Positions 21,375 through 44,710 are shown, counted from the first letter of the stretch. The stretch: DNA of 48,427 bases from Candidatus Aquicultor sp. (GCA_030682615.1 JAUXNY010000035.1:1-48427), one strand, 5' to 3'. A program made the numbers and translations. Notes: a model not told the origin generated them from the sequence alone.

Positions 21375-21403
21375 ATCCGTCACCCCTTGCAATAGAACGC
21401 GAT

Positions 21404-21437
21404 AGCATCACTGGCCGTATCGGTCGCCAGTGATGCT
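21404..21437 (-). terminator. Hairpin between pstS1 and pstC1
   Basis: A perfect 12-bp stem (21404-21415 with 21426-21437) around a 10-nt loop, without a T-run. It probably protects the pstS1 mRNA end or partly stops transcription, so the binding protein is made in excess over the permease. A comparable hairpin lies at the same place in pst system 2. Confidence 0.65.
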
Positions 21438-21486
21438 GTTCGCATCGTGATGTCGTTGTTTATGTCTATGCGAAATAATGAACCAC

Positions 21487-22467
21487 TTATTCGACTAACT
21501 TCAGGCTCTGCTCGTACTCCGCATCGTTGAGCGGAACATATCCGACCTCAGAAACCAGAGTCCTGCCCTCCGTAAGATAGAACTTGAGGAATGCTTTTAC
21601 CTCGGGCCTCTCAAGCGCCTTCTTGTTTACATAGATGAAGAGCCGGCGCGCGAGCGGCTTATAGGTGCCGTCCTTGATGGTGGTCTCATTGGGCTCGATT
21701 GCACCGTCGCCACCGTCCACAGATAGCGCCTTGATCTTGCTTGTGTTTTCAGCATAGTAAGCGTAGCCGAAGTAACCGAGCGCGCCTTTATCACCCGCTA
21801 CACCCTGTACTAGCACGTTGTCGTCCTCGCTTGCGCTGTAATCGGTACGGCTCGCGCCCTCTTCACCGTTGATCTCATCGGTGAAGTAGTCGAACGTTCC
21901 CGAGTCGGTACCGGGGCCGTACAATACCAGCTTCTCGTCCGGCCAGTCGGCGCGCACGTCTTTCCATGTTTTGACCTTGCTATCGGGAGCCCATATCTTG
22001 TTGAGTTCCTCGACGGTGATGGATTTTGCCCAGTCGTTATCGTGGTTTACGACGATTGATATCCCATCATAAGCTATCGGGATCTCGACGTATTCGATAC
22101 CGCTTTTTTCCGCAGCCTCTTTTTCCTCGTCTTTGATGTGGCGCGAGGCGTCGCTTATGTCGATCTCGCCAACGGTGAATTTCTTGAAGCCGCCACCGGT
22201 ACCCGATGTGCCGACCGTCACCTGAACGCTGGGATTCACGGCCATGAACTCTTCCGCCACCGCCTCGCTTATCGGCGCAACGGTGCTTGAGCCGTCGATT
22301 TTGATGTTTCCGGAAAGGTTTTTACTTTCGCCCTCAGTCTCACCAGTGCCGGTTGTGCTTTCCTTGCCACCGGATGTACAGCCAAATGCTGCAAGGGATA
22401 GTATGAGTGTAAATGCTGCAACGACTAAAATTTTATTCTTCTTCGACATGTTGGAATACAATTCCAT
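21487..22467 (-). CDS. pstS: Phosphate-binding lipoprotein PstS (system 1)
   Basis: A 326-residue lipoprotein that captures phosphate outside the membrane for PstCAB. The signal peptide ends in LAAFGCTSGG, with the Cys as lipid anchor, followed by a Gly/Thr/Glu linker. The mature part shows INIKIDGSSTVAP-like beginnings (IKIDGSSTVAPISEAVAEEF), the phosphate loop GTSGTGGGFKKFTVGEIDIS and GPGTDSGTFDYF. ATG 22467 follows AGGAGG by 6 bp; an internal ATG at 22449 is less well placed. A Pho-box array lies 100-140 bp upstream. It is the first gene of pstS1-C1-A1 and follows phoB-phoR on the same strand. Confidence 0.93.
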   Translation of the reverse strand: MELYSNMSKKNKILVVAAFTLILSLAAFGCTSGGKESTTGTGETEGESKNLSGNIKIDGSSTVAPISEAVAEEFMAVNPSVQVTVGTSGTGGGFKKFTVGEIDISDASRHIKDEEKEAAEKSGIEYVEIPIAYDGISIVVNHDNDWAKSITVEELNKIWAPDSKVKTWKDVRADWPDEKLVLYGPGTDSGTFDYFTDEINGEEGASRTDYSASEDDNVLVQGVAGDKGALGYFGYAYYAENTSKIKALSVDGGDGAIEPNETTIKDGTYKPLARRLFIYVNKKALERPEVKAFLKFYLTEGRTLVSEVGYVPLNDAEYEQSLKLVE

Positions 22468-22567: not shown

Positions 22568-22606
22568 GGTGAAAAAGTTGTAACCATTTTGTTAAATAAT
22601 TGTTAA
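22568..22606 (-). promoter_or_regulatory. Pho box upstream of pstS1
   Basis: On the + strand: GGTGAA 22568, TGTAAC 22579, TGTTAA 22590, TGTTAA 22601, all exactly 11 bp apart. Read along the gene they are TTAACA, TTAACA, GTTACA, TTCACC. This fits the known Gram-positive Pho-box pattern of TT(A/T/C)ACA-like repeats with 11-bp phasing. A -10-like TATATC lies about 18 bp further downstream. Confidence 0.78.
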
Positions 22607-22678
22607 ATAACGTTTTTCTCTTTCTCAAGTGTTTAATGCATGATACAAGACCTGACCCCAGCGCTTTTTCAGGGCAAT

Positions 22679-24049
22679 TTAAGTAGCGGTATCGTTGCTT
22701 ACCGGAAAGCGTATCGTAAACGTGCTCCCGATGCCGAGTTTGCTCTCGACGTCTATAGTGGCATTGTGGTTTTCGGCGATATGTTTTACTATCGAAAGCC
22801 CAAGGCCGGTTCCGCCGGTCTCCCTGCTCCTGGCTTTGTCAACCCGGTAAAAGCGCTCGAAAATCCTGGGGATTTCGCGCTTCGCCATGCCGATGCCGTT
22901 ATCGGCGACTATGAGATTGACCATAGCAACGGTTTTCTCTAACTTGATATCGATTCTTCCGCCGGCAAAGGCATACTTGATAGCGTTGTCCACGAGATTT
23001 CGGACCAGGGTTAGCAGCTGATCCCTGTCCCCCAGGATGAAAGGTATATCTTCAGGAGCGTTAAATGTAAGATGCAGGCTCTTATTTGCGGCGAGCTGGG
23101 TAAAGCTCGAGACGACTTCTTGTATGAGTTTGCCCAGGTCCACGGGCGACCTCTCGGTTGTACTTTCCGGGGTCTCAATTCTTGACAGGTCTATTAATTC
23201 GCGCACCAAGTATATGAGGGCACTTAGCTCTTTATCAAGCCTTTTAATAAAGACCTTGCTTGAAGAAGGGTCGGAGTCGATGCTTCGCAGAAGGGTTTCG
23301 GATAGTAGCTTTAGCCCGGTAAGCGGTGTTTTTAACTCATGCGATACGTTGGCTATGAAATCTTTTCTTAAGCGTTCGACATGTTTTTGTCTGGTGATGT
23401 TCCTGACGACGACAAGTGTTTGTTTTTCGTCGCCACCGCTTATAATCGGCAGCGCCCTGACGCGCAGTTGCCGGAAAGGCGTTTGGAGTTCAATCTCATC
23501 AAGGACCTCTTCGCCGGATGCCATGGATTCTTGAACGACATCGTCCAGGTCATGACTTTTTATCGAGTAGAGCACCGGTCTTCCTATAGCGTCGGCTGTT
23601 TTTACATCAAAGATTCTTTCAACCGAGGGGTTTGTCAATATAACGTCGCCGTAGTCGTTAAGGAGTAGTATGCCTTCGGCCATGTTGTCGAGGATCAGTT
23701 CAACTTTGGCTTTTTCCGAGCGGAGTTCTTCGATCCTACCTCTTAATTTTACCGCAAGGTTGTTTAACGATTTTGATAACTCCCCGATCTCATCGCCTTC
23801 GCGTACCGGCAATCTCTGCTCGAGGTCGTCGTTGGCCATCCGCTCGGCCATGACCATCATCCGCTTCAAAGGCGTCGTAAACGAGTTCGAAAGCACGTAG
23901 CTCGTCCCGACGACGAGCGTCGACGCGCCTATCGCGATAATGGCTATCCAGAAATAGGCTATAGATGAGCGGAGCACGACGCTGGTGATAAGGAAGGTCA
24001 AGACCGCTAGCAGTGTGTAGCTTACGACCAGTTTCTGCCCTATTCGCAT
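22679..24049 (-). CDS. phoR: Phosphate-regulon sensor histidine kinase PhoR
   Basis: A 456-residue membrane histidine kinase. Two close TM helices (about 8-26 and 32-52) leave almost no extracellular domain, so it probably senses Pst status from inside. Then HAMP (about 53-107), PAS (112-215), HisKA with FIANVSHELKTPLTG (His near residue 240) and HATPase with LVRNLVDNAIKYA, DNGIGM and GGTGLGLSIVKHIAE. This order is the PhoR type. It overlaps phoB by 10 bp, and pstS1 follows downstream, so the phoBR-pst context supports phosphate sensing. Confidence 0.9.
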   Translation of the reverse strand: MRIGQKLVVSYTLLAVLTFLITSVVLRSSIAYFWIAIIAIGASTLVVGTSYVLSNSFTTPLKRMMVMAERMANDDLEQRLPVREGDEIGELSKSLNNLAVKLRGRIEELRSEKAKVELILDNMAEGILLLNDYGDVILTNPSVERIFDVKTADAIGRPVLYSIKSHDLDDVVQESMASGEEVLDEIELQTPFRQLRVRALPIISGGDEKQTLVVVRNITRQKHVERLRKDFIANVSHELKTPLTGLKLLSETLLRSIDSDPSSSKVFIKRLDKELSALIYLVRELIDLSRIETPESTTERSPVDLGKLIQEVVSSFTQLAANKSLHLTFNAPEDIPFILGDRDQLLTLVRNLVDNAIKYAFAGGRIDIKLEKTVAMVNLIVADNGIGMAKREIPRIFERFYRVDKARSRETGGTGLGLSIVKHIAENHNATIDVESKLGIGSTFTIRFPVSNDTAT

Positions 24050-24738
24050 AGGACCTTCTCCTCGGCCTGGAATTTATAGCCGAGGCCATGGACTGTTTGA
24101 ATGTAGGAAAATATGGAGTGTTTCTCGATTTTATTGCGGATTCGCCTTATATGTACATCTATTGTGCGGCTGGATGCGTAAAATTCAGATCCCCATACCC
24201 GCGCAGCCAGGTCTTGACGGGTAAGCAGAACGCCCGGCTCGGAAGCAAGAACGGTAAGAAGTTGAAACTCTTTCAGGCGAAGGTGAACCGCTTTTCCGTT
24301 AACTTCCACGGTATGCTTTGTAAGGTCAAGCATCAGGTCCCCGATTTCAATAATCGGCGACCCCACAGGTTTTCTAAGGGTGTGTTTAAGATTTGCTTTT
24401 ATGCGCGCGATTAGTTCTTCGATGCTGAACGGTTTAGTTATATAATCGTCGGCGCCCACCCCGAACGCTTTAAGCTTGCTGCGCTGATCTTCAAGGGCGG
24501 TGAGCATAATTATCGGCACGTTCGCCTTCACTTTGCGGATTTCTCCACATACATCGAAGCCGTCCATCTCGGGCAGAAGGAGATCGAGTAAAATAAGATC
24601 GGGGTCATGCTCTTTTATCTGCGCCAGCCCCTGTATACCGTTTTCTGCGGCAAACACCTCGAAGCCCGCACCTTTTAAGCTGTATTGCAGGGTCTCCCGA
24701 ATCAACGGGTCATCTTCGATTACAAGAATCTGAATCAT
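24040..24738 (-). CDS. phoB: Phosphate-regulon response regulator PhoB/PhoP
   Basis: A 232-residue OmpR-family regulator. The receiver domain has D9/D10, the phosphorylated D52 (in ILLDLLLPEMDG), T80 and K102 (DDYITKPF). The C-terminal winged helix (about 130-228) has RLKEFQLLTVLASEPG and SRTIDVHIRRIRNKIE. It pairs with the overlapping phoR. It is the best candidate to bind the seven 11-bp-phased Pho boxes found in this window. No Pho box was seen in front of phoB itself. Confidence 0.9.
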   Translation of the reverse strand: MIQILVIEDDPLIRETLQYSLKGAGFEVFAAENGIQGLAQIKEHDPDLILLDLLLPEMDGFDVCGEIRKVKANVPIIMLTALEDQRSKLKAFGVGADDYITKPFSIEELIARIKANLKHTLRKPVGSPIIEIGDLMLDLTKHTVEVNGKAVHLRLKEFQLLTVLASEPGVLLTRQDLAARVWGSEFYASSRTIDVHIRRIRNKIEKHSIFSYIQTVHGLGYKFQAEEKVLCE

Positions 24739-25035: not shown

Positions 25036-25956
25036 TTATCCAAAACGCCCACAAAGGTAATTTTCCGTCTCCTCGCATTGAGGCCGTATCGACATCTCAG
25101 CAGTATTTCCGTGCTCGATTAAGCGACCGCTCAGGAAAAAGGCCATACGGTGAGAGATGCGGCGTGCTTGCGCGAGGTTATGCGTTACTATGATTATTGT
25201 GTAATCCGCGCGTAACATGAGCAAAAGTTCTTCGATATGCGCTGTTGAAACCGGGTCAAGAGAAGAGCACGGCTCATCTAGCATTATTATTTCAGGTCTT
25301 ACTGCTAAAGCCCGTGCAATGCATAAACGCTGTTGTTGTCCACCCGATAGGGATAGCCCGGAGACATTTAATTTGTCTTTAACTTCGTCCCAAAGACTAG
25401 CTTGGCGTAAACTTTCTTCAACGATCTCTGCCAGCTCTGTGCGTTTAATTCGCCTGTTGATTTCTCGCACTCCAAAAGCTACATTATCAAAGATTGACAT
25501 AGGGAAGGGGTTGGGGTGTTGAAACACCATGCCCACCTTGCGTCGAAGGATGGCAAGGTCGATACCCGGATCATAGATATCGAAGTCGTCGAGCTTTATT
25601 TGCCCCTGCAAGCGGAACGATTTTATAAGGTCATTTAGACGATTAAGGCAACGAAGAAATGTGCTTTTACCGCATCCTGATGGACCAATCAAGGCCAAGA
25701 TCTCATTTTCGAAGATTGGCAAATTTATCCGCTCAAGAACCTGCCCGGAGCTATACCAGGCGTCTAGATTTTTCACTTCCATTCTAAGTGAGTTTTCCTG
25801 ATTCTTAAGTGACGCTTTCTCTCCCTTAAGCAGGTTCTTTTGGTTGCCAAGCAAGCTCTTTTGGTCTCCGTTTCGATTTTTCTCTAATGCCCCTGGTATG
25901 GTAAGCGGAACAAATGGGTCTTTGATTGAGTCTTTGGCTGGGTCTTTAAGTATCAT
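25036..25956 (-). CDS. pstB: Phosphate ABC transporter ATPase PstB (system 2), with N-terminal extension
   Basis: A 306-residue ATPase powering phosphate import. From about residue 60 it is a standard PstB: EVKNLDAWYSSGQVLERI, Walker [27 protein letters not shown], signature [15 protein letters not shown], Walker B IIMLDEPCSSLDP, H-loop IVTHN, and the closing CGRFG. Usual PstB is about 250 residues; the extra N-terminal 55-60 carry four seven-residue units of the type QK-SLLGN, QKNLLKG, EKASLKN, QENSLRM. ATG 25956 follows AAAGGAG by about 8 bp, so the extension is translated. It ends the pstS2-C2-A2-B2 cluster, 25 bp after pstA2. Confidence 0.9.
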   Translation of the reverse strand: MILKDPAKDSIKDPFVPLTIPGALEKNRNGDQKSLLGNQKNLLKGEKASLKNQENSLRMEVKNLDAWYSSGQVLERINLPIFENEILALIGPSGCGKSTFLRCLNRLNDLIKSFRLQGQIKLDDFDIYDPGIDLAILRRKVGMVFQHPNPFPMSIFDNVAFGVREINRRIKRTELAEIVEESLRQASLWDEVKDKLNVSGLSLSGGQQQRLCIARALAVRPEIIMLDEPCSSLDPVSTAHIEELLLMLRADYTIIIVTHNLAQARRISHRMAFFLSGRLIEHGNTAEMSIRPQCEETENYLCGRFG

Positions 25957-25981
25957 GTAATTGACTCCTTTCATTTCTGCC

Positions 25982-26929
25982 CTAAGCTGCGGCTTTAACC
26001 TTCTTTGATTTTGCCATGATATAATCGACCGTAAGGTTGAGAAATAAAACTATAAGTATCAAAATAAACGCTGCGCCAAAAGCTTTATTTGGGGCATTTC
26101 CTTCACCTGCGGGAGAAGAATAATAAACAAATGTTGTTAATGTGCTACCAGAGCCCTGCAGTGTTTCTAACCAGTTCCAAGGCAACCACCACTGTTCGGC
26201 CCCAGTCATCGTCATGCTACCACCAACACAGAGCGTAATAATGGCAGTATCGCCTGCTATAAGACCTATGCCTAAAATTATGCCTGTTATAACTCCAGGC
26301 AGGGCTGCCGGCAATACGGCTTTTCTAATTACTCTCCAGCGCGTAGTTCCAAGGGCATAAGCGGCCGTGCGGTAATTTTCCGGAACAGACCTTATAGACT
26401 CTTCCATGGCTTTGATAACAAAAGATACTATGTGAAGCATCATTATCAGCCCGCCAACCAGAAAAGAAGAGCCAAGAGCAAGTTCTGTTCCCTCAACCTT
26501 GCTGCTCAAGAAAGCAAGTTGTGGAAGGCTAAATAATATTAGACCAAATATGGCAAGCACAGCGCTTGGAACACCAGCCAGCACGTCGACACCGAGAGAA
26601 ATTGATTTGGTTATAACGCTGTCTCTGTTTGCATATTCTGAAAGGTAAATCGCAGTTCCAAGAGCAATAGGAACGGTAACAAAAGTGGCAATGAGGATTA
26701 TAATAATTGTTCCAGCTATTGGTGTGAGAATTCCTCCGGCTAACGCCTCATTAAAGCTTGGTATCGGATCGGTTAGGAGAAACTCAAGGTTGACCATCTT
26801 TGCCCCTATAATTAGAGGATAAAGTACCAACCCGGCGCAAACAGCCACAATTATAGCGGCACTTAACCAGCAAAGCACAGGACCAAGTGCTACCAAGCGC
26901 GATCTTTTAATTAGTTGGCCATTAATCAT
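25982..26929 (-). CDS. pstA: Phosphate ABC transporter permease PstA (system 2)
   Basis: A 315-residue permease subunit with TM helices and the PstA-type sequences LSEYANRDSVITKSISLGVD, LAGVPSAVLAIFGLILFSLP and the coupling loop LPAALPGVITGIILGIGLIAGDTAII. The start overlaps the pstC2 stop in an ATGA, and AGGTGA lies 7 bp before it. A Gly-Asp pair (AGDTA) replaces the more usual GET of the coupling region. The segment is visibly richer in A/T than pst system 1. Confidence 0.88.
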   Translation of the reverse strand: MINGQLIKRSRLVALGPVLCWLSAAIIVAVCAGLVLYPLIIGAKMVNLEFLLTDPIPSFNEALAGGILTPIAGTIIIILIATFVTVPIALGTAIYLSEYANRDSVITKSISLGVDVLAGVPSAVLAIFGLILFSLPQLAFLSSKVEGTELALGSSFLVGGLIMMLHIVSFVIKAMEESIRSVPENYRTAAYALGTTRWRVIRKAVLPAALPGVITGIILGIGLIAGDTAIITLCVGGSMTMTGAEQWWLPWNWLETLQGSGSTLTTFVYYSSPAGEGNAPNKAFGAAFILILIVLFLNLTVDYIMAKSKKVKAAA

Positions 26930-27978
26930 TTTGCCATCACCTGCTTTTGATACCATGAAAAAACAAGTCGGGCGGTTAAACTTAGCAGTATGCTGATAAA
27001 TAGCAGGATAGTACCCACACCAAACAGCGCTGATTCGATGGCTTTTACACTCATGGCCTCTTTGTTATCTATGATAGCTGAGGCCATGACTCGGACTGGT
27101 TCAAGAAAAAAGACAAGGCCGTGCGATGGATCTGGAATAAAAGCCATGCCACCTGAAACCATGGATAAAGCAATAGCTTCTCCTACAGCTCGGGCTGAAG
27201 CTAAAATCATTCCGGTTACGATCCCCGGTATTGCCACAGGGATGAGTACTTTAGTTACGCTTCGCCATTGAGTTACACCCAAAGCCAGACTTGCTTCTTT
27301 ATAGGGTTTTGGCACAGCTCTTATGGCATCGGTTGCAACGGTTACATAAAAGGGGAGAACCATAAAGGTAAGAACAATAACTCCCGCAAGCAAACTTTGG
27401 CCATCAAGAGGCGCCACAGCAATGAACTTCAGTGCTAATTCATTACTGATGAAATTATCCATGATAAATGGAACTACCACCATCAAACCTATCAATCCAA
27501 AAATAACAGAAGGAATTCCCGCAAGAAGGCGCACCATAGCTTCGACTGGCCGGCGGATAGCATCTGGGGCAAGTTCGGCTAAGAAAATTGCACAGCCGGT
27601 GCCTAAAACAAAGGTTAAAAGAAGCGCACCGCCCGTGGTTAAAAATGTTCCCAGAATAAGAGGTAGAGCACCAAAATCCCATTTTGGTGTTTCGCTAAAC
27701 CATGCCTCTTGAATATGCTGATCCCACCCACCTGCAATAAAGAAAGCTAGTCCATTGTGCTTTAATGAAGACAGGGCCTCTTTTGCAACAAAAAGGATAA
27801 TAAAGAAAATAGCGGTACTTGAAATAATTGTTGCGAGCAACAACATATTTTCTATGATTTTTTCCTGAATGCGATACCATCGCGCTTGACTTTTTGTGCT
27901 GGAAAACAAAGCTTCGCTTGAGGGTAAAACGCCTCTTATTTTTTTGATTTCCACGCTTTTACGATTAGTATTTTCCAT
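26926..27978 (-). CDS. pstC: Phosphate ABC transporter permease PstC (system 2)
   Basis: A 350-residue permease subunit with a hydrophilic N-terminal tail of about 40 residues and then six TM helices. PstC features: LAELAPDAIRRPVEAMVRLL, LAGIPSVIFGLIGLMVVVPF and IPVAIPGIVTGMILASARAVGEAIAL. A long segment after TM1 (about 75-105, with FIAGGWDQHIQEAWFSE) matches the extracellular loop of PstC proteins. It overlaps pstA2 by 4 bp; upstream a 12-bp hairpin separates it from pstS2. Confidence 0.9.
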   Translation of the reverse strand: MENTNRKSVEIKKIRGVLPSSEALFSSTKSQARWYRIQEKIIENMLLLATIISSTAIFFIILFVAKEALSSLKHNGLAFFIAGGWDQHIQEAWFSETPKWDFGALPLILGTFLTTGGALLLTFVLGTGCAIFLAELAPDAIRRPVEAMVRLLAGIPSVIFGLIGLMVVVPFIMDNFISNELALKFIAVAPLDGQSLLAGVIVLTFMVLPFYVTVATDAIRAVPKPYKEASLALGVTQWRSVTKVLIPVAIPGIVTGMILASARAVGEAIALSMVSGGMAFIPDPSHGLVFFLEPVRVMASAIIDNKEAMSVKAIESALFGVGTILLFISILLSLTARLVFSWYQKQVMAK

Positions 27979-28019
27979 TTTATTGATTTGCCCTCCGCTT
28001 ATTTGCGCTGAATATCCCG

Positions 28020-28061
28020 AAAAGTGCCGGCCTATTCGCTTTTGATTAAGCCGGCACTTTT
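28020..28061 (-). terminator. Hairpin between pstS2 and pstC2
   Basis: A perfect 12-bp stem (28020-28031 with 28050-28061) around an 18-nt loop, ending in a short T-run on either strand. It is placed like the hairpin of pst system 1 and would let pstS2 be expressed above the permease genes by partial termination or 3'-end protection. Confidence 0.7.
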
Positions 28062-28127
28062 CTTTAAATCAAGATCTCGGCGAAGGAGAAGAAGTAGCTA
28101 CTTCACGTGATAGCTTCTAAATCACCC

Positions 28128-28979
28128 TTACTTTTTCTTCGCCGGCAAATACTCTTTTTTTACGACATTTTGACCGGCAGGAGAGAGAACCCATTTCAAG
28201 AATTCCTTAGTTAGGCCTGTTGGCTCTCCTTTGGTTACGTGGAAGAGCGGGCGGATAACCGGATATTGCCCTTTTTCAATTGTCTTTTTGTTAGGCACAA
28301 CACCATTCAAAGCAACCGGCTTTACCTTTTTGTTTACATAGGCAAAAGCAAGATAGGCGATCGCGTTCGGATTTTTGACAACGGCTTCACGATTGAGCCC
28401 ATGTGTTTCAAGCATCTTTACGGTTGGAGCTTGCGGCTGCTTCTTTAAAAACAGCTCATTAAAATAATCGAAAGTACCTGATGCGGGCGGGCGTGAATAA
28501 GCCATAATAGGAGCGTCAGCTCCGCCAACGTCTTTCCAGTTGGTTATCTTACCAAGATAGATATTCATTACTTGCTCCATGGTAAGCCCTTTTACCTTAT
28601 TTTTCGGATGAACTACTATTACTAGGGCTTCACGGGCAATTACGTACGCTTTTAATCCCTGTGCTTTTTCTTCCGGCTTTAGCGGACGAGAAGCTCCAGC
28701 CAGCGGTACTTTACCCGCTAGCAGGTCTTGAATACCTACGTTTGTACCAGGACCAGTTACAGTAATCTTTACATTCTTATTTCTCTTCATAAATTCTTTA
28801 GCTAACGCATGTGATAAGGGAAATACGGTATTTGAACCGCTAATGTGTAGTTCTCCGCTTAGCTTGGCTGCATGAGCTTGATTTGTGGTTAGAAAAGCTG
28901 CTGCGCTTAGCACAAGGCCCGCAATTATTGCTAATACAACAAGCCTTTTTTTGCTTAATGATATGCCTGTAAATAGCAT
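28128..28979 (-). CDS. pstS: PstS-family phosphate-binding protein (system 2)
   Basis: A 283-residue periplasmic-binding-type protein. It has a Sec signal peptide (LVVLAIIAGLVLSAAAFL, cut likely after QAHA) but no lipobox Cys, unlike PstS1, so it may be held by the transporter or released. The mature part shows LHISGSNTVFPLSHALAKEF, VTGPGTNVGIQDLLAGK, AGASRPL and PPASGTFDYF, typical of PstS/SphX proteins. The C-terminus is Lys-rich. ATG 28979 follows AAAGGGG by 8 bp. A Pho box lies at 29197-29235. It is the first gene of pst system 2. Confidence 0.87.
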   Translation of the reverse strand: MLFTGISLSKKRLVVLAIIAGLVLSAAAFLTTNQAHAAKLSGELHISGSNTVFPLSHALAKEFMKRNKNVKITVTGPGTNVGIQDLLAGKVPLAGASRPLKPEEKAQGLKAYVIAREALVIVVHPKNKVKGLTMEQVMNIYLGKITNWKDVGGADAPIMAYSRPPASGTFDYFNELFLKKQPQAPTVKMLETHGLNREAVVKNPNAIAYLAFAYVNKKVKPVALNGVVPNKKTIEKGQYPVIRPLFHVTKGEPTGLTKEFLKWVLSPAGQNVVKKEYLPAKKK

Positions 28980-29030
28980 CTCAAAACCCCTTTCAATAAA
29001 CCTCTTTTATCAAACATTTAAATAAACTCT

Positions 29031-29050
29031 TAAACCCTTGTAAACCCTTG
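29031..29050. repeat. Two tandem copies of TAAACCCTTG in the pstS2 leader
   Basis: An exact 10-bp tandem repeat (29031-29040, 29041-29050), preceded by the partial copy TAAACTCT at 29023. It lies between the Pho box and pstS2. The 10-bp period does not match the 11-bp Pho-box phasing, so it may bind another regulator or be chance. Confidence 0.5.
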
Positions 29051-29196
29051 CTTCAATTATTGCTCTCTTTTTAGAAGACCTTATAGCTTTAGCTTTTGCA
29101 AAAACCACCTCCTAATTTTCAGCAGCATCTGTTTAACTTGCTTTAATGAAACCCCGCACTTTCGATTTAAATGCTAGCAGCAAGCATTAGGGGGTT

Positions 29197-29235
29197 GGTT
29201 AAAACGAAGTTTAAACTTTGTAAAAAAATTGTTAC
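29197..29235 (-). promoter_or_regulatory. Pho box upstream of pstS2
   Basis: + strand hexamers GGTTAA 29197, AGTTTA 29208, TGTAAA 29219, TGTTAC 29230, each 11 bp apart (the second is degenerate). Along the gene they read GTAACA, TTTACA, TAAACT, TTAACC. The site is about 220 bp before the pstS2 start, leaving a long leader. Confidence 0.75.
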
Positions 29236-29277
29236 TCTGCTCGCCCTCCCGCCCCTTTGTGGGGTTCGATTGTCAGG

Positions 29278-29318
29278 GAAATCCAGTTGGGGGGGGTTAA
29301 CCCCCCCAACTGGATTTC
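29278..29318. terminator. 18-bp perfect hairpin after the SLH gene
   Basis: Arms 29278-29295 and 29301-29318 pair perfectly (GAAATCCAGTT plus seven G with seven C plus AACTGGATTTC) around a 5-nt loop. It lies 40 bp downstream of the SLH gene (minus strand) and just before the pstS2 Pho box, so it would insulate the two units. Confidence 0.75.
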
Positions 29319-29358
29319 TTAACTATTTATTTGGGTCGTGCCGGGAACTTACTGTCGG

Positions 29359-30186
29359 CTATTCTTCAGCGCCAGGAGCAAGTTTAAACCCTAAGGAGAC
29401 ATTCTCCCTGGCTTTGTTGAGCAGGTGAACCATCTCAGCCCTGGTTACGAAGTTCTGAGCTTTGATGTAGAGGTTGTAGCCGTTTGCACCTTCTGTGCCA
29501 TCGGGATTAACCTCTCGATACTGATGCTTGGTAGCGTCATAGGCTGCAACGTCGCCCCTGTATCCCTTAATGAGTTTCTGATCAACCGCGATTGCGATTA
29601 GGTCTCTCAGGTCAGGAGATACGGTCTTGTAGTCCTTGAAGATCAGGTCGATGCTGGTTGCGTCTACGGTCTTCTTGTCAAGACCCGTGGCCAGCACGAG
29701 GGCCGCAGCTACGTCTTCTCTGGTAGCTGGTGCGCTCGGGCGGAAAGAGCCGTCCGGGTACGCCGGCAGGAAGCCGACGGCTTTCTGGATGGACTTAAGA
29801 GCCCAGTGTTTTTCGGAAACGTCGCGCAGTTCAATATCGTCCTCGGGCTTTGGCAGGTAGAGGGCCCTCTCTGTCGCCGCCGCAAACTCGGCACGGGTTA
29901 CGGCCTTGCTTGGCCTGAACATTTTATCCGGGTAACCCTTGACGGCCCCAAGGGCGAGCATGGCTACGATGTCGCTGTTAGCCCAGTTACCCGTGATATC
30001 GGTCGGCAGGCTTACTCTTGGCATGAATGCGTCTTGCGCAGGGGTTTCGGTAAAAGTACTCGGCATCTCAAGACCTGTGCTTGCGCCCGCCACCGGTACG
30101 GCGCCGACTATGGTTCCCGCGGCGAAAACGGTAGCTAAGGTTAGGCTAATATTCTTCTTTGCGGACTCTTTCGAAAAGATGTTCAT
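29359..30186 (-). CDS. SLH-domain surface protein inside the pst region
   Basis: A 275-residue secreted protein built almost only of SLH repeats. The signal peptide (ISLTLATVFAAGTIVGAVPV, ending near AGAS) is followed by three repeats: NWANSDIVAMLALGAVKGYP with VTRAEF (about 65-115), KHWALKSIQKAVGFLPAYPD with ATREDV (about 120-170) and a longer third with LIAIAVDQKLIKGYRGD and FVTRAEMVHLL (about 190-260). SLH repeats attach proteins to the cell wall. ATG 30186 follows GGAGGA by about 9 bp. Two Pho boxes lie upstream (30401-30428, 30481-30508), so it is probably made under phosphate starvation. What it does beyond wall binding is unknown. Confidence 0.87.
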   Translation of the reverse strand: MNIFSKESAKKNISLTLATVFAAGTIVGAVPVAGASTGLEMPSTFTETPAQDAFMPRVSLPTDITGNWANSDIVAMLALGAVKGYPDKMFRPSKAVTRAEFAAATERALYLPKPEDDIELRDVSEKHWALKSIQKAVGFLPAYPDGSFRPSAPATREDVAAALVLATGLDKKTVDATSIDLIFKDYKTVSPDLRDLIAIAVDQKLIKGYRGDVAAYDATKHQYREVNPDGTEGANGYNLYIKAQNFVTRAEMVHLLNKARENVSLGFKLAPGAEE

Positions 30187-30400
30187 GTTAAATGTTCCTC
30201 CTTCTAAAGTTACACAGTTTTCTAACAGTTTTCTAACATCTTGCGGCTGGTTCTACGTATCATCTACGATCGGTGCTGAGCTTGCTTTTAAATCGATATC
30301 CCTTACCGATCATTCCCACCTCCCTCAGGCTAATAAGCAGATCTTTAAGGACTGGCTTCCTCTGCTTGCTTCGAAGTTTAATGGATAGCAAGAGGTTAGT

Positions 30401-30428
30401 GGTTAAAATAATGTAAAGATATTGTTAC
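30401..30428 (-). promoter_or_regulatory. Pho box A upstream of the SLH gene
   Basis: GGTTAA 30401, TGTAAA 30412, TGTTAC 30423 on the + strand, 11 bp apart (gene-strand GTAACA, TTTACA, TTAACC). Nearly the same sequence, spacers included, is found at 32606-32633 upstream of the Big_5 gene. Confidence 0.82.
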
Positions 30429-30480
30429 AATTTCAGAAAATTTATGTGACATATACCCAGCATAATTAGGCAATTATGGT

Positions 30481-30508
30481 TGTTAAAAGGTTGTAAGCTA
30501 ATTGTTAC
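30481..30508 (-). promoter_or_regulatory. Pho box B upstream of the SLH gene
   Basis: TGTTAA 30481, TGTAAG 30492, TGTTAC 30503 on the + strand, 11 bp apart, with another TGTAAG at 30511 out of phase. It lies 53 bp upstream of box A and in the same orientation. Confidence 0.72.
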
Positions 30509-30572
30509 AATGTAAGAATAGACGATCGGATGGTGTACCTGGGGGAAACCGGTTTTCCTAGAAAAAAGCGAA

Positions 30573-30603
30573 GGCCCGGGGTTAAACTTGAGCGCCCCGG
30601 GCC
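30573..30603 (-). terminator. Terminator after the Big_5 repeat protein gene
   Basis: A perfect 9-bp GC stem GGCCCGGGG/CCCCGGGCC (30573-30581 with 30595-30603). On the minus strand it is followed within a few bases by a run of six T. It ends the gene that stops at 30650. Confidence 0.8.
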
Positions 30604-30649
30604 GTTTCTATATTTGCGGCAATGTTAGAAGAAATCCTATGATCAAGAA

Positions 30650-32515
30650 CTATTTCTTTGTAGTAAAAGTGAGCGCAAACTCCTCCGACAAGCCCTTTTC
30701 CCTCATGTCCTGTACGGCATCCGCTGGAATAAACAGCATATAAGTTGTCTCCTTTTTTAGCATACCGCTTGGCCAAACCTTAATACTGTTATTGCGAATC
30801 GCTATCTTAATCCTTACTTCGTTACCGTCCTCATCCGATAACGAAATGCCCCAGTAATCAGCGCCTTTTATGATGCGACCGTTAAAGACAACCTGAATTG
30901 CCGGGTAGCGCTTTACGTTTGCTGCGTCGTCGTAGGGGGTGGTTCTAACGACATCGAGCGCATGACCGTTTACATCATCCGATGGTCTGTTAGAGGTTAC
31001 AAAGAAGTCCGCCCACGCTTCAGGTTTCCCCCAGGCCGGGATGTCGGCGTACACGGCATACGCTCCGCGTTTTACCCGCTCGGGCACCGCCAGGGCAGCC
31101 CTAAACTTACCAAAGTTATCGGTTTTGACATTTTTTGCCGGCTCGCCGGCATCTTTTTTGCCGTCGCCGTCGATATCGAACCAGACTCTGCCCGATGTCC
31201 ACGTTTTAAAATCTTTACCGTTGATGATGATTATTGTACCCGGCGAGCCGTTGGTCAGGCTTAAGGATAGGCTTGGTTCGGCAAGGATCACTATAGTAAC
31301 TGCCGCATCGTCTGTCCCGCTGCCGGGGAGGTCGGCGCGTATATAATGGACGCCTGCCGGAACCTTGGGTATAGTCATGCCGGTTATAAAACCGCCGTAA
31401 CTGTTAGTGGTCACTTTTTTACTAACTTCGCCTGCGTCTCTTGCTGAATTGCCGTTGGCGTCAAACCAGACCCAACCGGCCGTATTTGCCGGAAAGCGCC
31501 TTCCAACGACGTTAATCGTCCCGCCCGGTATTGCCTTACTTGCGCTTAAAGCCAGACTTGGCCCCTTAATAATAAAGTTTGCTGAAACCTTAACAGGGCT
31601 ACCCTGGGGCAGCTCTACCCTGACCGGGTAAGAACCGGTAGATATAAATCCGCCCGGCACGACCAGCGTGGTTATAATCCTGCCGCTAGCATCGCTTGTT
31701 GCCTGTGATGAGGGCTCTCCTTCGGTCAAAATGCCGTCCCTGTTGGTATCGAACCAGGCCGGCCCCGATTTATTCGCTTCGAAGCCGCTGCCGGTAATAG
31801 TAATTAGCGTACCGGGCGAACCGCCGGTTGGGCTTAAGGTTAGGCGGGGGATTGCAGTAAAAATAACCTCTGAGTCGGTGTGGCTGCTTTCGGATAGAGA
31901 AGCTCTGATTGGATATGCCCCCGCCGCAACGTTAGGCACGGTAAGGGAAGCATAAAAAGCGCCGGCTGTGTCAGCCGTAACCCGCATAGCGGGTTCGCCG
32001 GAGTCTCTAGTATAGTTGTTGTTTGTATCAAACCATACCCAGATATCCCTACCCGGCGCGAAGTATCTACCGCTAATAATGATGGCCGTTCCGGCTGGGC
32101 CGCTATTTATTCCCAGGGTTAGGCTCGGTCTTCTAACCGTAAATAGCGTGTGCGCCTCTGTGGGTCCGCCACCGGGAATATCAGCTCGGATTAAATAATA
32201 CCCTGGAGGTAAACTGGGCACAGTTAATACCGTGCTGAATCTACCGGAATCATCTGAGGATACATCACTTTGAGGCTCATCGGAGTCTTTTAAACCGTCC
32301 CCGTTCGTATCAAACCATACGCTACCAGGCTGATTAGCGTCAAAACCGGCACCGGTAACAGTAAGCTTTGTGCCAGAGGGGCCGGAAACAGGGCTCAAGC
32401 TTAAAGTTGGGGCCGCAAATGCGATTCCCGGCAAAATAAATAAAAGCAGCAGCGATATCGCCACAAGCAGCCCCGCAAAACAAAAATCTCTTTGGGGTAG
32501 AGAGAACCTTAACAT
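30650..32515 (-). CDS. Secreted protein with five Ca-loop repeats and a C-terminal Big_5 domain
   Basis: A 621-residue exported protein. The signal peptide is long (LLVAISLLLLFILPGIAFA, cut near residue 34). Five repeats of about 95-100 residues follow, each starting like PSLSLSxxxGSPGT and GxGFxxN, and holding an acidic loop: VWFDTNGDGLKDSDEP, VWFDTNNNYTRDSGEP, AWFDTNRDGILTEGEP, VWFDANGNSARDAGEV, VWFDIDGDGKKDAGEP. Such Asp/Asn loops commonly bind Ca2+; here that is inferred. The last 110 residues form a Big_5 (SbsA-type Ig-like) domain ending FALTFTTKK. No sorting signal or SLH repeat is present, so attachment is unclear. ATG 32515 follows AAGGAGG by 5 bp. A Pho box lies 91 bp upstream. Confidence 0.8.
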   Translation of the reverse strand: MLRFSLPQRDFCFAGLLVAISLLLLFILPGIAFAAPTLSLSPVSGPSGTKLTVTGAGFDANQPGSVWFDTNGDGLKDSDEPQSDVSSDDSGRFSTVLTVPSLPPGYYLIRADIPGGGPTEAHTLFTVRRPSLTLGINSGPAGTAIIISGRYFAPGRDIWVWFDTNNNYTRDSGEPAMRVTADTAGAFYASLTVPNVAAGAYPIRASLSESSHTDSEVIFTAIPRLTLSPTGGSPGTLITITGSGFEANKSGPAWFDTNRDGILTEGEPSSQATSDASGRIITTLVVPGGFISTGSYPVRVELPQGSPVKVSANFIIKGPSLALSASKAIPGGTINVVGRRFPANTAGWVWFDANGNSARDAGEVSKKVTTNSYGGFITGMTIPKVPAGVHYIRADLPGSGTDDAAVTIVILAEPSLSLSLTNGSPGTIIIINGKDFKTWTSGRVWFDIDGDGKKDAGEPAKNVKTDNFGKFRAALAVPERVKRGAYAVYADIPAWGKPEAWADFFVTSNRPSDDVNGHALDVVRTTPYDDAANVKRYPAIQVVFNGRIIKGADYWGISLSDEDGNEVRIKIAIRNNSIKVWPSGMLKKETTYMLFIPADAVQDMREKGLSEEFALTFTTKK

Positions 32516-32584
32516 TTTATCCTCCTTGATCTTCTTTGCTAATGATGGGGAGACTTGCATTCGACCAAGCCTAGCAATGAGCTT

Positions 32585-32633
32585 AATATATGGCCGGCAG
32601 GCTGTGGTTAAATAAATGTAAAGACATTGTTAC
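32585..32633 (-). promoter_or_regulatory. Pho box and -10 for the Big_5 repeat protein gene
   Basis: GGTTAA 32606, TGTAAA 32617, TGTTAC 32628 on the + strand, 11 bp apart. On the gene strand, 15 bp downstream of the box, lies TATATT (32590-32585), a good -10. The site is between divergent genes, so it could also act on arsC. Confidence 0.8.
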
Positions 32634-32703
32634 AATTTCTAGTAACTTCTGGAAATTTAAAGATTGAAACTATTCTTGCCCTCTGCCTACCCCTTTACAA
32701 ATT

Positions 32704-32709
32704 TATAAT
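32704..32709 (+). promoter_or_regulatory. Candidate -10 box for arsC
   Basis: A perfect TATAAT, 40 bp before the arsC start. No -35 hexamer stands at normal distance (the best, TTGCCC at 32676, gives a 22-bp spacer), so an activator such as PhoB may assist. Confidence 0.4.
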
Positions 32710-32748
32710 TACGATCGAGTATGTAATTAAAAATAACTCGGAGGAAAT

Positions 32749-33201
32749 ATGGAACCGGTGAATACCAGGCGAAAAATTCTCTTTTTATGTACAGGCAACT
32801 CAGCTCGCAGCCAGATGGCGGAGGGCTGGGCGAGGCATCTTAAGGGCGATGTCGTTGAGCCCTATTCGGCAGGCATAGAGGCGCATGGGCTTAATCCTTA
32901 TGCCGTTAAGGTTATGAGGGAAGCGGGCGTAGATATCTCTGGACAGCGCTCGAAATTGGTAAAAGAATTTGAAGATGTTGAATTCGATTACGTTGTAACG
33001 GTCTGCGGCCACGCAAATGAGAGCTGCCCTTATTTTCCGGGTAAGACCAGGGTGGTTCATGTGGGCTTTGAGGATCCGGCTAGGGCGAGTGGCACCGAGG
33101 AAGAGATTATGGCGGTTTTTCGCCGGGTGCGCGACGAGATACGGGCGTTCGTTGAGACGCTACCCGGCGCGCTTTATTCTCTCGCGCGGTCGGGAGAATA
33201 G
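32749..33201 (+). CDS. arsC: Arsenate reductase, thioredoxin-coupled ArsC (LMW phosphatase fold)
   Basis: A 150-residue cytoplasmic enzyme reducing arsenate to arsenite. It has the P-loop LCTGNSARSQMAEG with the nucleophilic Cys and the two relay cysteines in VTVCGHANESCPYFPG (7 residues apart), which distinguish thioredoxin-linked arsenate reductase from plain tyrosine phosphatase. CGGAGGAAAT precedes ATG 32749. Its place in the phosphate island makes sense: Pst systems also import arsenate. The last residues (ALYSLARSGE) are encoded antisense to the end of a psiE remnant, and the same C-terminal end occurs at 43866-43914, so the tail seems to derive from a convergent arsC/psiE overlap. Confidence 0.9.
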   Translation: MEPVNTRRKILFLCTGNSARSQMAEGWARHLKGDVVEPYSAGIEAHGLNPYAVKVMREAGVDISGQRSKLVKEFEDVEFDYVVTVCGHANESCPYFPGKTRVVHVGFEDPARASGTEEEIMAVFRRVRDEIRAFVETLPGALYSLARSGE

Positions 33202-33302
33202 ATCACGGCAAGCGTGCGAACGGCCGCAACCGCTAGCATCGCCGCGCCCAGTGCGAGGATCTTTGCCGGCTCGAAGTCGGGCTCAGAAAACCGCACCCAC
33301 GC
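33154..33302. repeat. Left direct repeat flanking the phn cassette
   Basis: Aligns without gaps to 43866-44014 (offset 10,712 bp), about three-quarters identical overall and about 86% over the first 50 bp. It covers the last codons of arsC on one strand and the last 43 codons of a psiE-like frame on the other. Confidence 0.82.
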
Positions 33303-33308
33303 ACCCAT
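33174..33308 (-). pseudogene. psiE 3' remnant, 44-codon frame with its own start
   Basis: The minus-strand frame from ATG 33308 to TAA 33174 encodes 44 residues. It matches the C-terminal 42 residues of the intact PsiE at 43886 without frameshift: RFSEPDFEPAKILAL against RFSETDFDPIKILAM, then identical RTLAVIYSPDRARE. It would be a single membrane helix plus tail. AAGGAG stands only 2 bp before the ATG, too close for efficient use. Homology stops at the ATG. Most likely a truncated copy left by the event that placed the phn operon here, though the intact frame leaves open a small expressed protein. It overlaps the arsC 3' end by 28 bp. Confidence 0.7.
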
Positions 33309-33325
33309 ATCTCCTTAATTTTTTA

Positions 33326-33390
33326 GGCTCTGCGTTAGGCTATGGTAGAGCCCGGATTGTCGCGAAAGCTGTGACGAGAGCACAGCTTTA
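33326..33390. repeat. 65-bp dispersed repeat with hairpin, copy 1
   Basis: Matches 48070-48134 at 60 of 65 positions, preceded in both by a T-run. The 3' half forms a 9-bp stem (33365-33373 with 33381-33389, AAAGCTGTG/CACAGCTTT) with loop ACGAGAG. It lies between the psiE remnant and the phn Pho box. Possible roles: terminator, small RNA end or repeated palindromic element. Confidence 0.8.
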
Positions 33391-33459
33391 CTGTAACCTG
33401 CTTCATAAAATGGCTGCTAACGGCTATTGCCGACCACAAGATTCCCGATTTTAACCGAT

Positions 33460-33519
33460 TTAACAGTGTTTTAACAATAATGAAAACATTATTTAACCAA
33501 ACCACCTCCGCAATATGAG
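33460..33519 (+). promoter_or_regulatory. Pho box and -10 region for the phn operon
   Basis: TTAACA 33460, TTAACA 33471 and TTAACC 33493 are in 11-bp phase (33482 is degenerate). Exactly 15 bp after the last one is TATGAG (33514-33519), the same box-to-minus-10 distance as at the Big_5 gene. A second possible promoter, TTGCAC 33529 with a 17-bp spacer, ends at the PhnF operator. Confidence 0.7.
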
Positions 33520-33554
33520 ATAAAAACCTTGCACGAATAAATCGGACGTTTTAC

Positions 33555-33574
33555 TTGTCTAGACGTCTGTACAA
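33555..33574 (+). promoter_or_regulatory. Inverted repeat, likely PhnF operator
   Basis: TTGTCTAGAC (33555-33564) faces GTCTGTACAA (33565-33574), an imperfect palindrome with 8 of 10 positions matching. It lies 15 bp before the phnF start, where a HutC-type GntR repressor would block transcription. Autoregulation is inferred from position and from known PhnF operators. Confidence 0.6.
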
Positions 33575-33589
33575 TTGGAGAACACTTTT

Positions 33590-34324
33590 ATGTTTATCGA
33601 TAAAGAGAACGGCATTCCGTACTATCGCCAGTTGATCGAAATACTGCAGAAACAGATACGGGAGGGTGCCTACAAGGAAGGAGACAAGTTGCCCTCCGAG
33701 GCCGAACTGAGCCTGATCTTTAAGATCAATCGGCATACGGTTCGCCAGGCCGTCAATGAACTCGTTCTTTGTGGGATTCTCTATAAGCTAAGGGGCAAGG
33801 GAACCTTTGTCGCCAGAAAAAAAGCGGATCACATCGATTATAAGGTATCCAAAAAAACCAGCTTTACGCAGAACATTCTGGAGGTAGGTCTCAAACCGAG
33901 CGCGAGGTTAAGCAAAGCCGTGGTTGTCCCGGCGCCCGAAAGTGTGGCGCAAAATTTGGGGATAGGACAGGGGGAAAGGACGTTCTTCTTGGAGATAGCG
34001 CGTTTCGCAAACGACGAGGTTATTTCTTTAAGTACCACGTATTTACCTGAATACTTAGCACCGGATTTAAACAAAAACTTGAAAAGATTTTCGTCATTGT
34101 ACAAAGTGCTTGAAGATCACTACGATCTGGTGCCCACTCGCACTAAATCGGTCTTCAACGCTACGTTCCCGAGCATGGATGATGCGTTGCGACTTGGCAT
34201 TTCAAGGGATACGCCTATTCTCAAGGTGGAAAGCGTCATGAGGACCACAGGGGGCACCATTGTAGAGTACTCAGTAACCAGATTTCGCAGCGATCGGGCT
34301 AAAATCAGCGTTGATTTTACATAA
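33590..34324 (+). CDS. phnF: GntR/HutC-family regulator PhnF
   Basis: A 244-residue repressor: GntR winged helix (about 5-72, IPYYRQLIEILQKQI, LPSEAELSLIFKINRHTVRQ, GKGTFV) and a UTRA ligand-binding domain (about 90-240) of the HutC type. First gene of the phosphonate operon, hence PhnF. ATG 33590 is preferred: GGAG (33577-33580) lies 9 bp before it; TTG 33575 would overlap that site. An inverted repeat just upstream is its likely operator and a Pho box lies further up, so the operon appears to answer both phosphate starvation and a ligand. The ligand is unknown. Confidence 0.87.
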   Translation: MFIDKENGIPYYRQLIEILQKQIREGAYKEGDKLPSEAELSLIFKINRHTVRQAVNELVLCGILYKLRGKGTFVARKKADHIDYKVSKKTSFTQNILEVGLKPSARLSKAVVVPAPESVAQNLGIGQGERTFFLEIARFANDEVISLSTTYLPEYLAPDLNKNLKRFSSLYKVLEDHYDLVPTRTKSVFNATFPSMDDALRLGISRDTPILKVESVMRTTGGTIVEYSVTRFRSDRAKISVDFT

Positions 34325-34424
34325 GCCGGCTATTTGAAAATACTCTTTGAGGAGGTGGGGAAAGCGCAAAACCAGTATGCTGTTTGCTTAAAAAAACTCG
34401 AATGTAAGAGGAGGACTGTAAGTA

Positions 34425-35372
34425 ATGCTTTTTTCAAAACAATTTAAAATATTAGCCCTGCTCGGTTTGTTGCTCGGTCTCTTTGGCTTTATAGCGGGAT
34501 GTTCCGGCTCCAAGAGCCCTAAAGAGCAGGTCGAACAAGTCAAACAGACTAACGCTAAGGCGGAGAAAGAAGAGGTAAAGGTATTGCGCGTCGGCCTGAT
34601 CCCCGCCGAGGATTCTGAAGAAATGGTCAAAAAGTTTAAGCCCGCCACGGAGTACCTGGCGAAAAAATTGAACGTCAAAGTAGAGCCCTATGTGGCCACC
34701 GATTACTCTGGGGTTATCGAGGCCATGCGTTCCGGCAAAATCGATGTCGCTTTCTTTGGGCCTTTTTCATATGTTCTGGCCGTGGATAAAGCCGGCGCCG
34801 AAGCTTTTGCCGTGGGCGTCGGGAGCGATGGTAAATCCACCTATCAGAGCATGATTATCACGCGTAAAGACAGCGGGATAAAAACCCTTGAGGATATTAA
34901 GGGTAGGGACTTTGCTTTTGTCGACCCCGCTTCTACATCCGGCAATCTAATCCCCCGCGCCATGTTCAAAAAGGCCGGAATCGACCCGGAAAAAGACTTT
35001 AAAAGCGTTTCCTACACTGGTGGTCATGATGCTTCCGCGTTGGCGGTAAAGAACAAAAAAGTAGCCGTCGCAGCCGTCAACGATATTACCTACGAGAAAA
35101 TGGTTAAGGAGGGCCTGATCAAACCTGAAGAAAACGCAATTATCGCCAAGTCCGACCCGATACCGGGTTCGCCCATCAGCTTTAGAGGTGATCTTTCAGA
35201 CGATTTAAAAGAAAAGATCAAGAAGGCTTTTCTTGACATGCATAATGAGGCGCCGGAAGCGCTTGGCGGTTATGGCGAGATCGTTCGTTATGATGAGGCC
35301 GGGGACGGCGACTACGACGTCATCAGAGAAGTCGCCAAGATACTTAACCTGGACTTAAAAAAGATGAAATAA
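34425..35372 (+). CDS. phnD: Phosphonate-binding lipoprotein PhnD
   Basis: A 315-residue substrate-binding protein of the phosphonate importer PhnCDE. The signal peptide ends in LFGFIAGCSGS (lipid Cys), followed by a charged linker rich in Glu/Lys. The mature part shows LRVGLIPAEDSEEMVKKFKP, VEPYVATDYSGVIEAMRSGK, DVAFFGPFSYVLA, DFAFVDPASTSGNLIPRAMF and GGHDASALAVKNKKV, all typical of PhnD. ATG 34425 follows GGAGGA. It is 100 bp after phnF, and phnC follows. It catches alkylphosphonates outside the membrane. Confidence 0.93.
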   Translation: MLFSKQFKILALLGLLLGLFGFIAGCSGSKSPKEQVEQVKQTNAKAEKEEVKVLRVGLIPAEDSEEMVKKFKPATEYLAKKLNVKVEPYVATDYSGVIEAMRSGKIDVAFFGPFSYVLAVDKAGAEAFAVGVGSDGKSTYQSMIITRKDSGIKTLEDIKGRDFAFVDPASTSGNLIPRAMFKKAGIDPEKDFKSVSYTGGHDASALAVKNKKVAVAAVNDITYEKMVKEGLIKPEENAIIAKSDPIPGSPISFRGDLSDDLKEKIKKAFLDMHNEAPEALGGYGEIVRYDEAGDGDYDVIREVAKILNLDLKKMK

Positions 35373-43865: not shown

Positions 43866-44014
43866 GAGACATTATCCGAGGCGCTTTATTCCCTCGCGCG
43901 GTCGGGAGAGTAGATGACCGCGAGGGTGCGGACAGCGACAACGGCGAGCATCGCACCAGCCATCGCGAGGATTTTGATGGGGTCGAAATCGGTTTCCGAG
44001 AAACGAATCCAGAT
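43866..44014. repeat. Right direct repeat flanking the phn cassette
   Basis: The counterpart of 33154-33302. On the + strand it encodes the arsC-like end TETLSEALYSLARSGE before a stop at 43914; on the minus strand it is the 3' end of intact psiE. Upstream, from 43768, the + frame runs through sequence unlike arsC, so only the last 17 or so codons of the arsC-like end remain. Confidence 0.82.
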
Positions 44015-44536: not shown

Positions 44537-44575
44537 GGTTAAACCCGTGCAAACAATTTGTAAGAAATCTGTTAA
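44537..44575 (-). promoter_or_regulatory. Pho box upstream of psiE
   Basis: + strand hexamers GGTTAA 44537, TGCAAA 44548, TGTAAG 44559, TGTTAA 44570 are each exactly 11 bp apart. Along psiE they read TTAACA, CTTACA, TTTGCA, TTAACC. Orientation fits psiE on the minus strand; pstB, divergent at 44788, would see it reversed. Confidence 0.75.
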
Positions 44576-44710
44576 ATGTGACAGCGGGATTAATCTATCA
44601 ACTACAAGGCAAGCAGGTTCTTTACCGTGCAATAACTCGACAAGCGAGGTCTTGGCAGGTTCAGGGTCGAGAATGGAGGCGGATTCAGCAAGTAGCAAAA
44701 TAACGCGAAC

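Follow-up and report, generated by a model that had tools for sequence, protein, structure and literature searches.

Two surface-protein genes of Candidatus Aquicultor preceded by nearly identical predicted Pho operators and linked to an accessory phosphate transporter operon

Why should two unrelated genes for surface proteins carry almost the same regulatory sequence? This question is raised by positions 29,359 to 32,633 of a 48,427-nucleotide (nt) stretch of DNA from Candidatus Aquicultor sp. (GCA_030682615.1 JAUXNY010000035.1:1-48427), which is called the window here at its full length. In this region, a gene for a secreted protein made of S-layer homology (SLH) units and a gene for a secreted chain of immunoglobulin (Ig)-like domains lie beside an operon for a phosphate transporter. 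A first-pass annotation reported nearly identical Pho boxes at 30401-30428 and 32606-32633 and proposed that the two proteins are under phosphate control. Both boxes are found at these places on the minus strand, with 29 of 33 positions identical, and both are predicted PhoP operators that are retained in a sister species. As judged from these sequences, it is very probable that the SLH and Ig-chain genes are controlled by phosphate via PhoP-type operators. We assign a probability of about 0.5 to the complete statement that the two proteins form a phosphate-starvation surface module, consisting of an anchor and an Ig fibre, that is linked to an accessory Pst transporter. The bacterium probably remodels its surface when phosphate is exhausted. 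The region from 29000 to 35000 was examined on both strands, and the pair and its control elements are as follows.

29359-30186, minus strand: gene for the secreted SLH-only protein, 275 amino acids, with a signal peptide and three SLH units (Pfam SLH, E-value 7.9e-23)
30375-30380, minus strand: -10 element TAAACT of the SLH gene, 24 nt from AACC
30401-30430, minus strand: Pho box of the SLH gene, three 11-nt units, 0 mismatches
30481-30510, minus strand: second, weaker upstream Pho box of the SLH gene, with a counterpart in the sister species at G002:C19:26863
about 30562-30600, minus strand: GC-rich hairpin (inverted repeat, from reading of the sequence) with a T run, a likely terminator between the Ig-chain and SLH genes
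30650-32515, minus strand: gene for the secreted Ig-chain protein, 621 amino acids (Pfam GEVED 4.4e-17, Big_5 1e-13, TIG 8.4e-12)
32580-32585, minus strand: -10 element TAAGCT of the Ig-chain gene, 24 nt from AACC
32606-32635, minus strand: Pho box of the Ig-chain gene, three 11-nt units, 0 mismatches

In transcription order, the SLH box reads TTGTAACAATATCTTTACATTATTTTAACCACT and the Ig-chain box reads TTGTAACAATGTCTTTACATTTATTTAACCACA. When the upstream regions of the SLH, Ig-chain, pstS1, pstS2, phnF, and PsiE-family genes are aligned, a common architecture is seen: TTTAACA-type units every 11 nt, a final unit TTTAACC, and a -10 element of the form TAnnnT located 24 nt downstream, counted from the first base of AACC or CACC in the last unit. 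The last unit before pstS2 is TTTCACC, and the phnF operator is without a clean -10 element at the +24 position. PHO boxes are defined by 11-nt repeats (PMC4415409), and the sites described here are likewise direct repeats of about seven conserved bases with an 11-nt period. The likeness between the SLH and Ig-chain promoters consists of the three repeat units and the -10 hexamer, and the 20-nt stretch between box and -10 element has no notable likeness. Therefore, the two promoters are not simply copies of one duplicated stretch, and such a duplication was ruled out.

The box at 32606-32635 was also considered as the operator of a divergent arsC-like gene. This assignment was ruled out by orientation, and the box was given to the Ig-chain gene because its repeats and -10 element read toward that gene. 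The Ig-chain gene most likely starts at 32515 rather than at 32560, since AAGGAGGA is located just upstream of the former position. The hairpin at 30562-30600 is missing from the list of a simple terminator scan, and its loop exceeds the length allowed by that scan. Given this likely terminator between the two genes, each would need its own promoter.

The same operator precedes established Pho genes of the same genome (pstS1, pstS2, psiE, and phnF), and a PhoP-PhoR system is encoded nearby.

22568-22607, minus strand: Pho box of pstS2 (core pst operon at 19555-22467), found by window and genome scans
22679-24738, minus strand: phoP-phoR two-component system, PhoB/PnpS-like, with PhoP encoded at 24040-24738
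29197-29236, minus strand: Pho box of pstS1, four units, with -10 element TAGCAT at 29171-29176
33459-33498, plus strand: Pho box of phnF and the phn (carbon-phosphorus lyase) operon, found by the window scan
44537-44576, minus strand: Pho box of the PsiE-family gene (43886-44389), found by window and genome scans

The best NCBIfam matches of the two-component system are PhoB and PnpS, both below the curated cut-off. We scanned the whole window with a model consisting of two TTTAACA units and one TTTAACC unit at an 11-nt period plus TAnnnT at +24 (maximum score 24). The six highest scores belong to pstS1 (21), SLH (21), Ig chain (21), pstS2 (20), psiE (19), and phnF (18). Four places in the window score at least 20, versus a mean of 0.00 and not one occurrence in 100 dinucleotide shuffles made in 500-nt blocks; the shuffle means are 0.01 for scores of at least 19 and 0.04 for scores of at least 18. 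A consensus of the SLH and Ig-chain boxes gives two matches in the window and none in the 100 shuffles. These shuffle figures are optimistic because the scan model was built after the sites, including the two boxes in question, had been seen, and for the same reason the sister genome serves as the independent test.

Genome-wide counts were made with an IUPAC pattern at no more than three mismatches, and the reversed pattern was used as a control. The pattern matches the studied genome (G000) seven times, versus three for the control. Only four matches have two mismatches or fewer, namely those of the SLH gene (0), the Ig-chain gene (0), pstS2 (1), and psiE (2), such that the boxes of the pair are the sole perfect sites in their own genome. 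The pstS1 operator has three mismatches. Furthermore, a pstS2-type match that ends in TTTTTCACCAC or a sequence close to it is present in 10 of 10 other family genomes, as expected for a Pho operator.

Among 60 relatives searched, one genome of a sister species in the same genus (G002) is the only one that encodes a full-length ortholog of the Ig chain (63% identity), and it is also the only one with an ortholog of the SLH protein (63% identity in the aligned part, 58-61% overall). Profiles of both proteins found nothing beyond G000 and G002 in 396 genomes of the phylum. The pair is absent from nine other family genomes searched, and a PstS1 search in seven of these nine returned only distant PstS paralogs with at most 34% identity. 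Two genomes of the same genus, G001 (77% complete) and G003 (99% complete), are without the pair and have PstS of the core type only.

The three operators in G002 have 0 (SLH), 0 (Ig chain), and 3 (pstS1) mismatches, and the operators of both surface-protein genes are thus conserved in a related species, as is typical of a Pho regulon. The distance between the main and second SLH boxes is also alike, with 80 nt here and 76 nt in G002. The gene order is different. Here the order is Ig chain, SLH, pstS1CAB in a single direction, whereas on contig C19 of G002 the Ig-chain gene (minus strand) diverges from pstS1CAB, which is followed by the SLH gene (both plus strand). Neither phn nor arsC is located beside the pair in G002. 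The suggestion that relatives would have the same pair with its boxes near pst or phn therefore holds in part: the pair is next to pst in G002, but phn is not adjacent there, and other genera of the family do not have the pair. Two observations speak for a module, namely that PhoP-type operators with a -10 element at a fixed distance precede the SLH gene, the Ig-chain gene, and pstS1CAB, and that the operators of both surface-protein genes are retained in G002 despite the altered order.

Two neighbouring features bear on the history of this arrangement.

25036-28979, minus strand: second pst operon, pstS1-pstC1-pstA1-pstB1, linked to the pair in G000 and G002
32749-33201, plus strand: arsC-like gene of the low-molecular-weight phosphatase family, divergent from the Ig-chain gene and a member of the core Pho cluster in relatives

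The core cluster of G001 comprises pstA-pstC-pstS2-phoR-phoP, the arsC-like gene, psiE, and pstB. In the window, a block made of pst1, the SLH gene, and the Ig-chain gene is located between phoP and the arsC-like gene, and the phn operon is located between the arsC-like gene and psiE. Comparison with G001 and G002 indicates that the pair belongs, with pst1, to an accessory block whose location differs between the two species that have it. Between G000 and G002, the core transport genes pstC2, pstA2, and pstB2 are 91-97% identical and pstS2 is 77% identical, versus 54-76% for the genes of the block. As a separate observation, PhoP and PhoR of G000 share only about 70% identity with their counterparts in G001 and G002. 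Between G001 and G002 the figure is 83-88%, and several core pst genes adjoining phoPR exceed 90% identity. Replacement of phoPR together with insertion of the block is possible.

What could the two proteins do? The SLH protein has no cargo domain. Pfam gives two clear SLH units, and a third is seen by alignment and in an AlphaFold model, whose mean predicted local distance difference test (pLDDT) score is 72, with values above 90 across much of the first two units. The model matches the SLH trimers of Sap and SpaA (target template modeling [TM] scores of 0.74-0.80 for the ten best hits), and by both alignment and model the three units make up one trimer fold, as in SLH anchors. The equivalents of SLH-Arg43 (R98, R156, and R249), Gly29 (G84 and G208), and Trp13 (W68 and W128) are invariant between the two orthologs. 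According to the groove description for SLH trimers (PMC6081394), groove G1 combines Arg of unit 3, Gly of unit 1, and Trp of unit 2, which are all present as R249, G84, and W128. By the same cyclic logic, groove G3 (Arg of unit 2, Gly of unit 3, and Trp of unit 1) is represented by R156, G208, and W68. Groove G2 lacks both the Gly that unit 2 should supply and the Trp expected from unit 3. Polymer-binding grooves G1 and G3 are thus predicted to be intact and G2 to be broken. Outside the SLH units, an N-terminal segment (TGLEMP..FT.TP..DAF.PR.S.PTD) and a C-terminal tail (SLGFKLAPG) are strongly conserved between the two sequences, a pattern suggestive of a binding partner. When named genomes were scanned with the SLH protein, the single match was an unrelated SLH protein of Peregrinibacteria (34%). 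Another SLH protein is encoded in the window at 7319-8701; it is longer, has three C-terminal SLH units and no Pho operator, and offers a useful contrast.

CsaB-family pyruvyltransferases make the ligands of SLH domains. A CsaB-family gene (PF04230) is present in G000 at C153:12031-12843 (E-value 5e-49), on a contig that also carries several SLH genes, so the genome has the enzyme family expected where SLH anchors bind a pyruvylated ligand. Genes of this family are present in eight of eight family genomes that gave SLH hits. Among genomes without SLH hits, G007 and G011 also have such a gene, and G009 and G010 do not. A gene for an LCP ligase is located on contig C9, which holds other SLH genes. 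From the PF04230 hit and the LCP ligase, we infer that the wall polymer is a pyruvylated, SLH-binding one. The SLH protein would then be a bare anchor whose trimer clamps this polymer via grooves G1 and G3.

In the Ig-chain protein, a signal peptide is followed by five TIG/GEVED-like repeats, each about 94 residues long, and Big_5 forms the C-terminal domain. The model of this protein is all beta except for the signal-peptide helix. Each of the five repeats has an acidic loop of the calcium type, such as DTNGDGLKDSDEP, and all five loops are kept in the G002 ortholog. No wall anchor was recognised in the Ig chain itself. A fold search returned many Ig-chain proteins with low TM scores, and the resemblance to S-layer Ig repeats is weak (the NF041335 match is far below cut-off). 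The NCBIfam model chromo_anti also matched below cut-off; kinship with neocarzinostatin-type chromoproteins was rejected, and the match was attributed to nothing more than a common Ig-like fold.

At low phosphate, PhoP is phosphorylated by the PhoR-PhoP system, binds 11-nt repeats, and recruits RNA polymerase. In the module that we favor, an additional phosphate transporter of high affinity would be produced under this condition together with the anchor and the Ig chain. The Ig chain, stiffened by its calcium loops, would act as an exposed fibre or coat. It would be held to the wall by the anchor, which implies that the two proteins bind each other; the candidate contact on the SLH protein is its conserved N-terminal segment, an insertion within SLH unit 3, or its C-terminal tail. 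Together they would alter adhesion or the coat in starvation with no expense of phosphate.

Several points weigh against this reading. The pair is known in two species only, and its co-occurrence therefore rests on few events. The Ig-chain model is confident for each domain only (predicted TM score 0.39). Moreover, pstB1 is 76% identical between G000 and G002 versus 97% for pstB2, and this far greater divergence of the pst1 genes suggests that the block may have been gained separately or may be evolving fast.

The strongest competing explanation is that the two genes are functionally independent members of the Pho regulon that hitch-hike with the accessory pst operon and have no joint function, which we regard as possible although unlikely. 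It accords with a separate promoter for each gene, the terminator between them, and the location of the two genes on opposite sides of pstS1CAB in G002. However, the link of both genes to the same pst operon survived rearrangement, the operators are nearly identical for both genes in both species, and the genes are jointly absent elsewhere.

A different role for the SLH-only protein is that of a competitor or cap, which displaces other SLH proteins and opens or thins the coat such that phosphate and phosphonate reach the Pst and Phn binding proteins. Its lack of cargo fits this role and sets it apart from the other SLH proteins retrieved from these genomes, the majority of them longer; the two grooves predicted to be intact fit the role as well. 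We nevertheless have serious doubts about it, since the conserved TGLEMP segment and C-terminal tail suggest a binding role beyond capping and the Ig chain is left unexplained.

The pair could instead catch phosphorus, if the calcium loops of the Ig chain held calcium-phosphate mineral or phosphate-bearing particles near the transporters. The five conserved acidic loops and the linkage to a second Pst system point in this direction, but acidic loops of this type are common structural calcium sites, and we find the proposal highly improbable.

A similarly slim chance is given to the idea in the first-pass annotation that a protein scaffold replaces phosphate-rich teichoic-type polymers in starvation. 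Bacillus subtilis swaps teichoic for teichuronic acid under PhoPR, and this exchange is a precedent. Its context is given in PMC6232261. However, the TagB/F CDP-glycerol glycerophosphotransferase family (PF04464) was found in none of 12 genomes (this one and 11 relatives), while the B. subtilis positive control was matched, and the ligand proposed above is a pyruvylated polymer. The teichoic-acid version of the idea is thus without a visible substrate, and after this search it was dropped as the leading reading, although some other phosphate-containing wall polymer could still fill that place. Finally, AT-rich intergenic DNA can yield repeats at random, but the notion that the boxes are chance matches or functionless copies of one duplicated stretch can practically be dismissed given shuffle controls near zero, the fixed 24-nt distance to the -10 element, further sites before pst, psiE, and phn genes, conservation in G002, and a likeness confined to functional elements.

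How does the favored module compare with known systems? As in the Pho regulons of Escherichia coli (PhoB), B. subtilis (PhoP), and Streptomyces (PhoP), the operators are 11-nt direct repeats just 5' of the -10 element, and phoPR is accompanied by pst, phn, and psiE-family targets. The difference lies in the targets, two of which are here an SLH anchor without cargo and a surface protein with multiple Ig domains. With the SLH anchors Sap of Bacillus anthracis and SpaA of Paenibacillus alvei, the SLH protein shares the trimer fold, TRAE-type motifs, and a CsaB-family pyruvyltransferase in the genome; unlike them, the whole protein is an anchor, the G2 residues are lost, and the third SLH unit carries an insertion. 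The Ig chain resembles IgdA of Lactobacillus acidophilus (PMC7090030) and S-layer proteins with Big domains (PMC8056022) in being secreted, having Ig-like domains, and having a proposed surface role. It differs from them by its TIG/GEVED-like repeats with acidic loops, its terminal Big_5 domain, the lack of a recognised wall anchor, and its predicted phosphate control. A partial precedent is SlpE, an SLH protein of Propionibacterium freudenreichii that is induced 12.9-fold in gradual nutritional shortage; the passages of that report considered here (PMC5146858) draw no link to a Pho box or pst genes.

Each component is therefore of a known kind, and the combination of a Pho-controlled cargo-free SLH anchor, an Ig-chain partner, and an accessory Pst operon appears new, as judged from open-licence literature. 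In that literature, we found no description of SLH proteins as Pho targets, nothing direct on SLH proteins or S-layers under Pho control, and, in agreement with the earlier remark on novelty, no described system with such a pair. If the module exists, it would link phosphate sensing to SLH-based surface display, a link that we did not find described, and it predicts that the coat has two parts, with anchor and fibre made as separate proteins that a single operator type switches jointly. We offer only tentatively, and with more doubt than belief, the further idea that the phosphate-starvation cassette is transferable, such that a surface coat moves along with the high-affinity phosphate transporter. 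In this coat, a cargo-free SLH adaptor would dock a separate Ig-chain fibre on a pyruvylated wall polymer, and the coat could be switched by phosphate independently of housekeeping SLH proteins. The analysis also provides a concrete Pho operator for this lineage (three 11-nt units with TAnnnT at +24), with which the starvation genes of relatives can be listed.

Some additional observations concern other genes of the window and Pho-type operators in relatives. A xylose-isomerase-like TIM-barrel gene with a weak CbiR match (42826-43767) is located directly 3' of the phnM-like gene in the phn operon. The arsC-like gene is found again in the core Pho clusters of relatives, and a Pho operator of its own precedes the G002 copy (L090:16026-16720); one possible role of the gene in phosphate starvation is arsenate reduction. 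Elsewhere in G002, a gene with a heavy-metal-associated (HMA_2) domain (contig C8, L090:6658-7260) is found 3' of a good Pho-type operator. On contig C28 of the same genome (L091:6511-10301), a camelysin/TasA-like pair (Peptidase_M73 family) and a large signal-peptidase-like gene are preceded by a Pho-type operator with one mismatch and a -10 element TATTAT at +24, but the first gene is about 850 nt away from it. The sister species may thus have another surface or matrix system under phosphate control at this locus. In G009 (contig C19, L093:3383-6540), a Pho-type operator is followed by a gene for a secreted beta-propeller and phosphoesterase protein of 888 amino acids, which fits phosphate scavenging.

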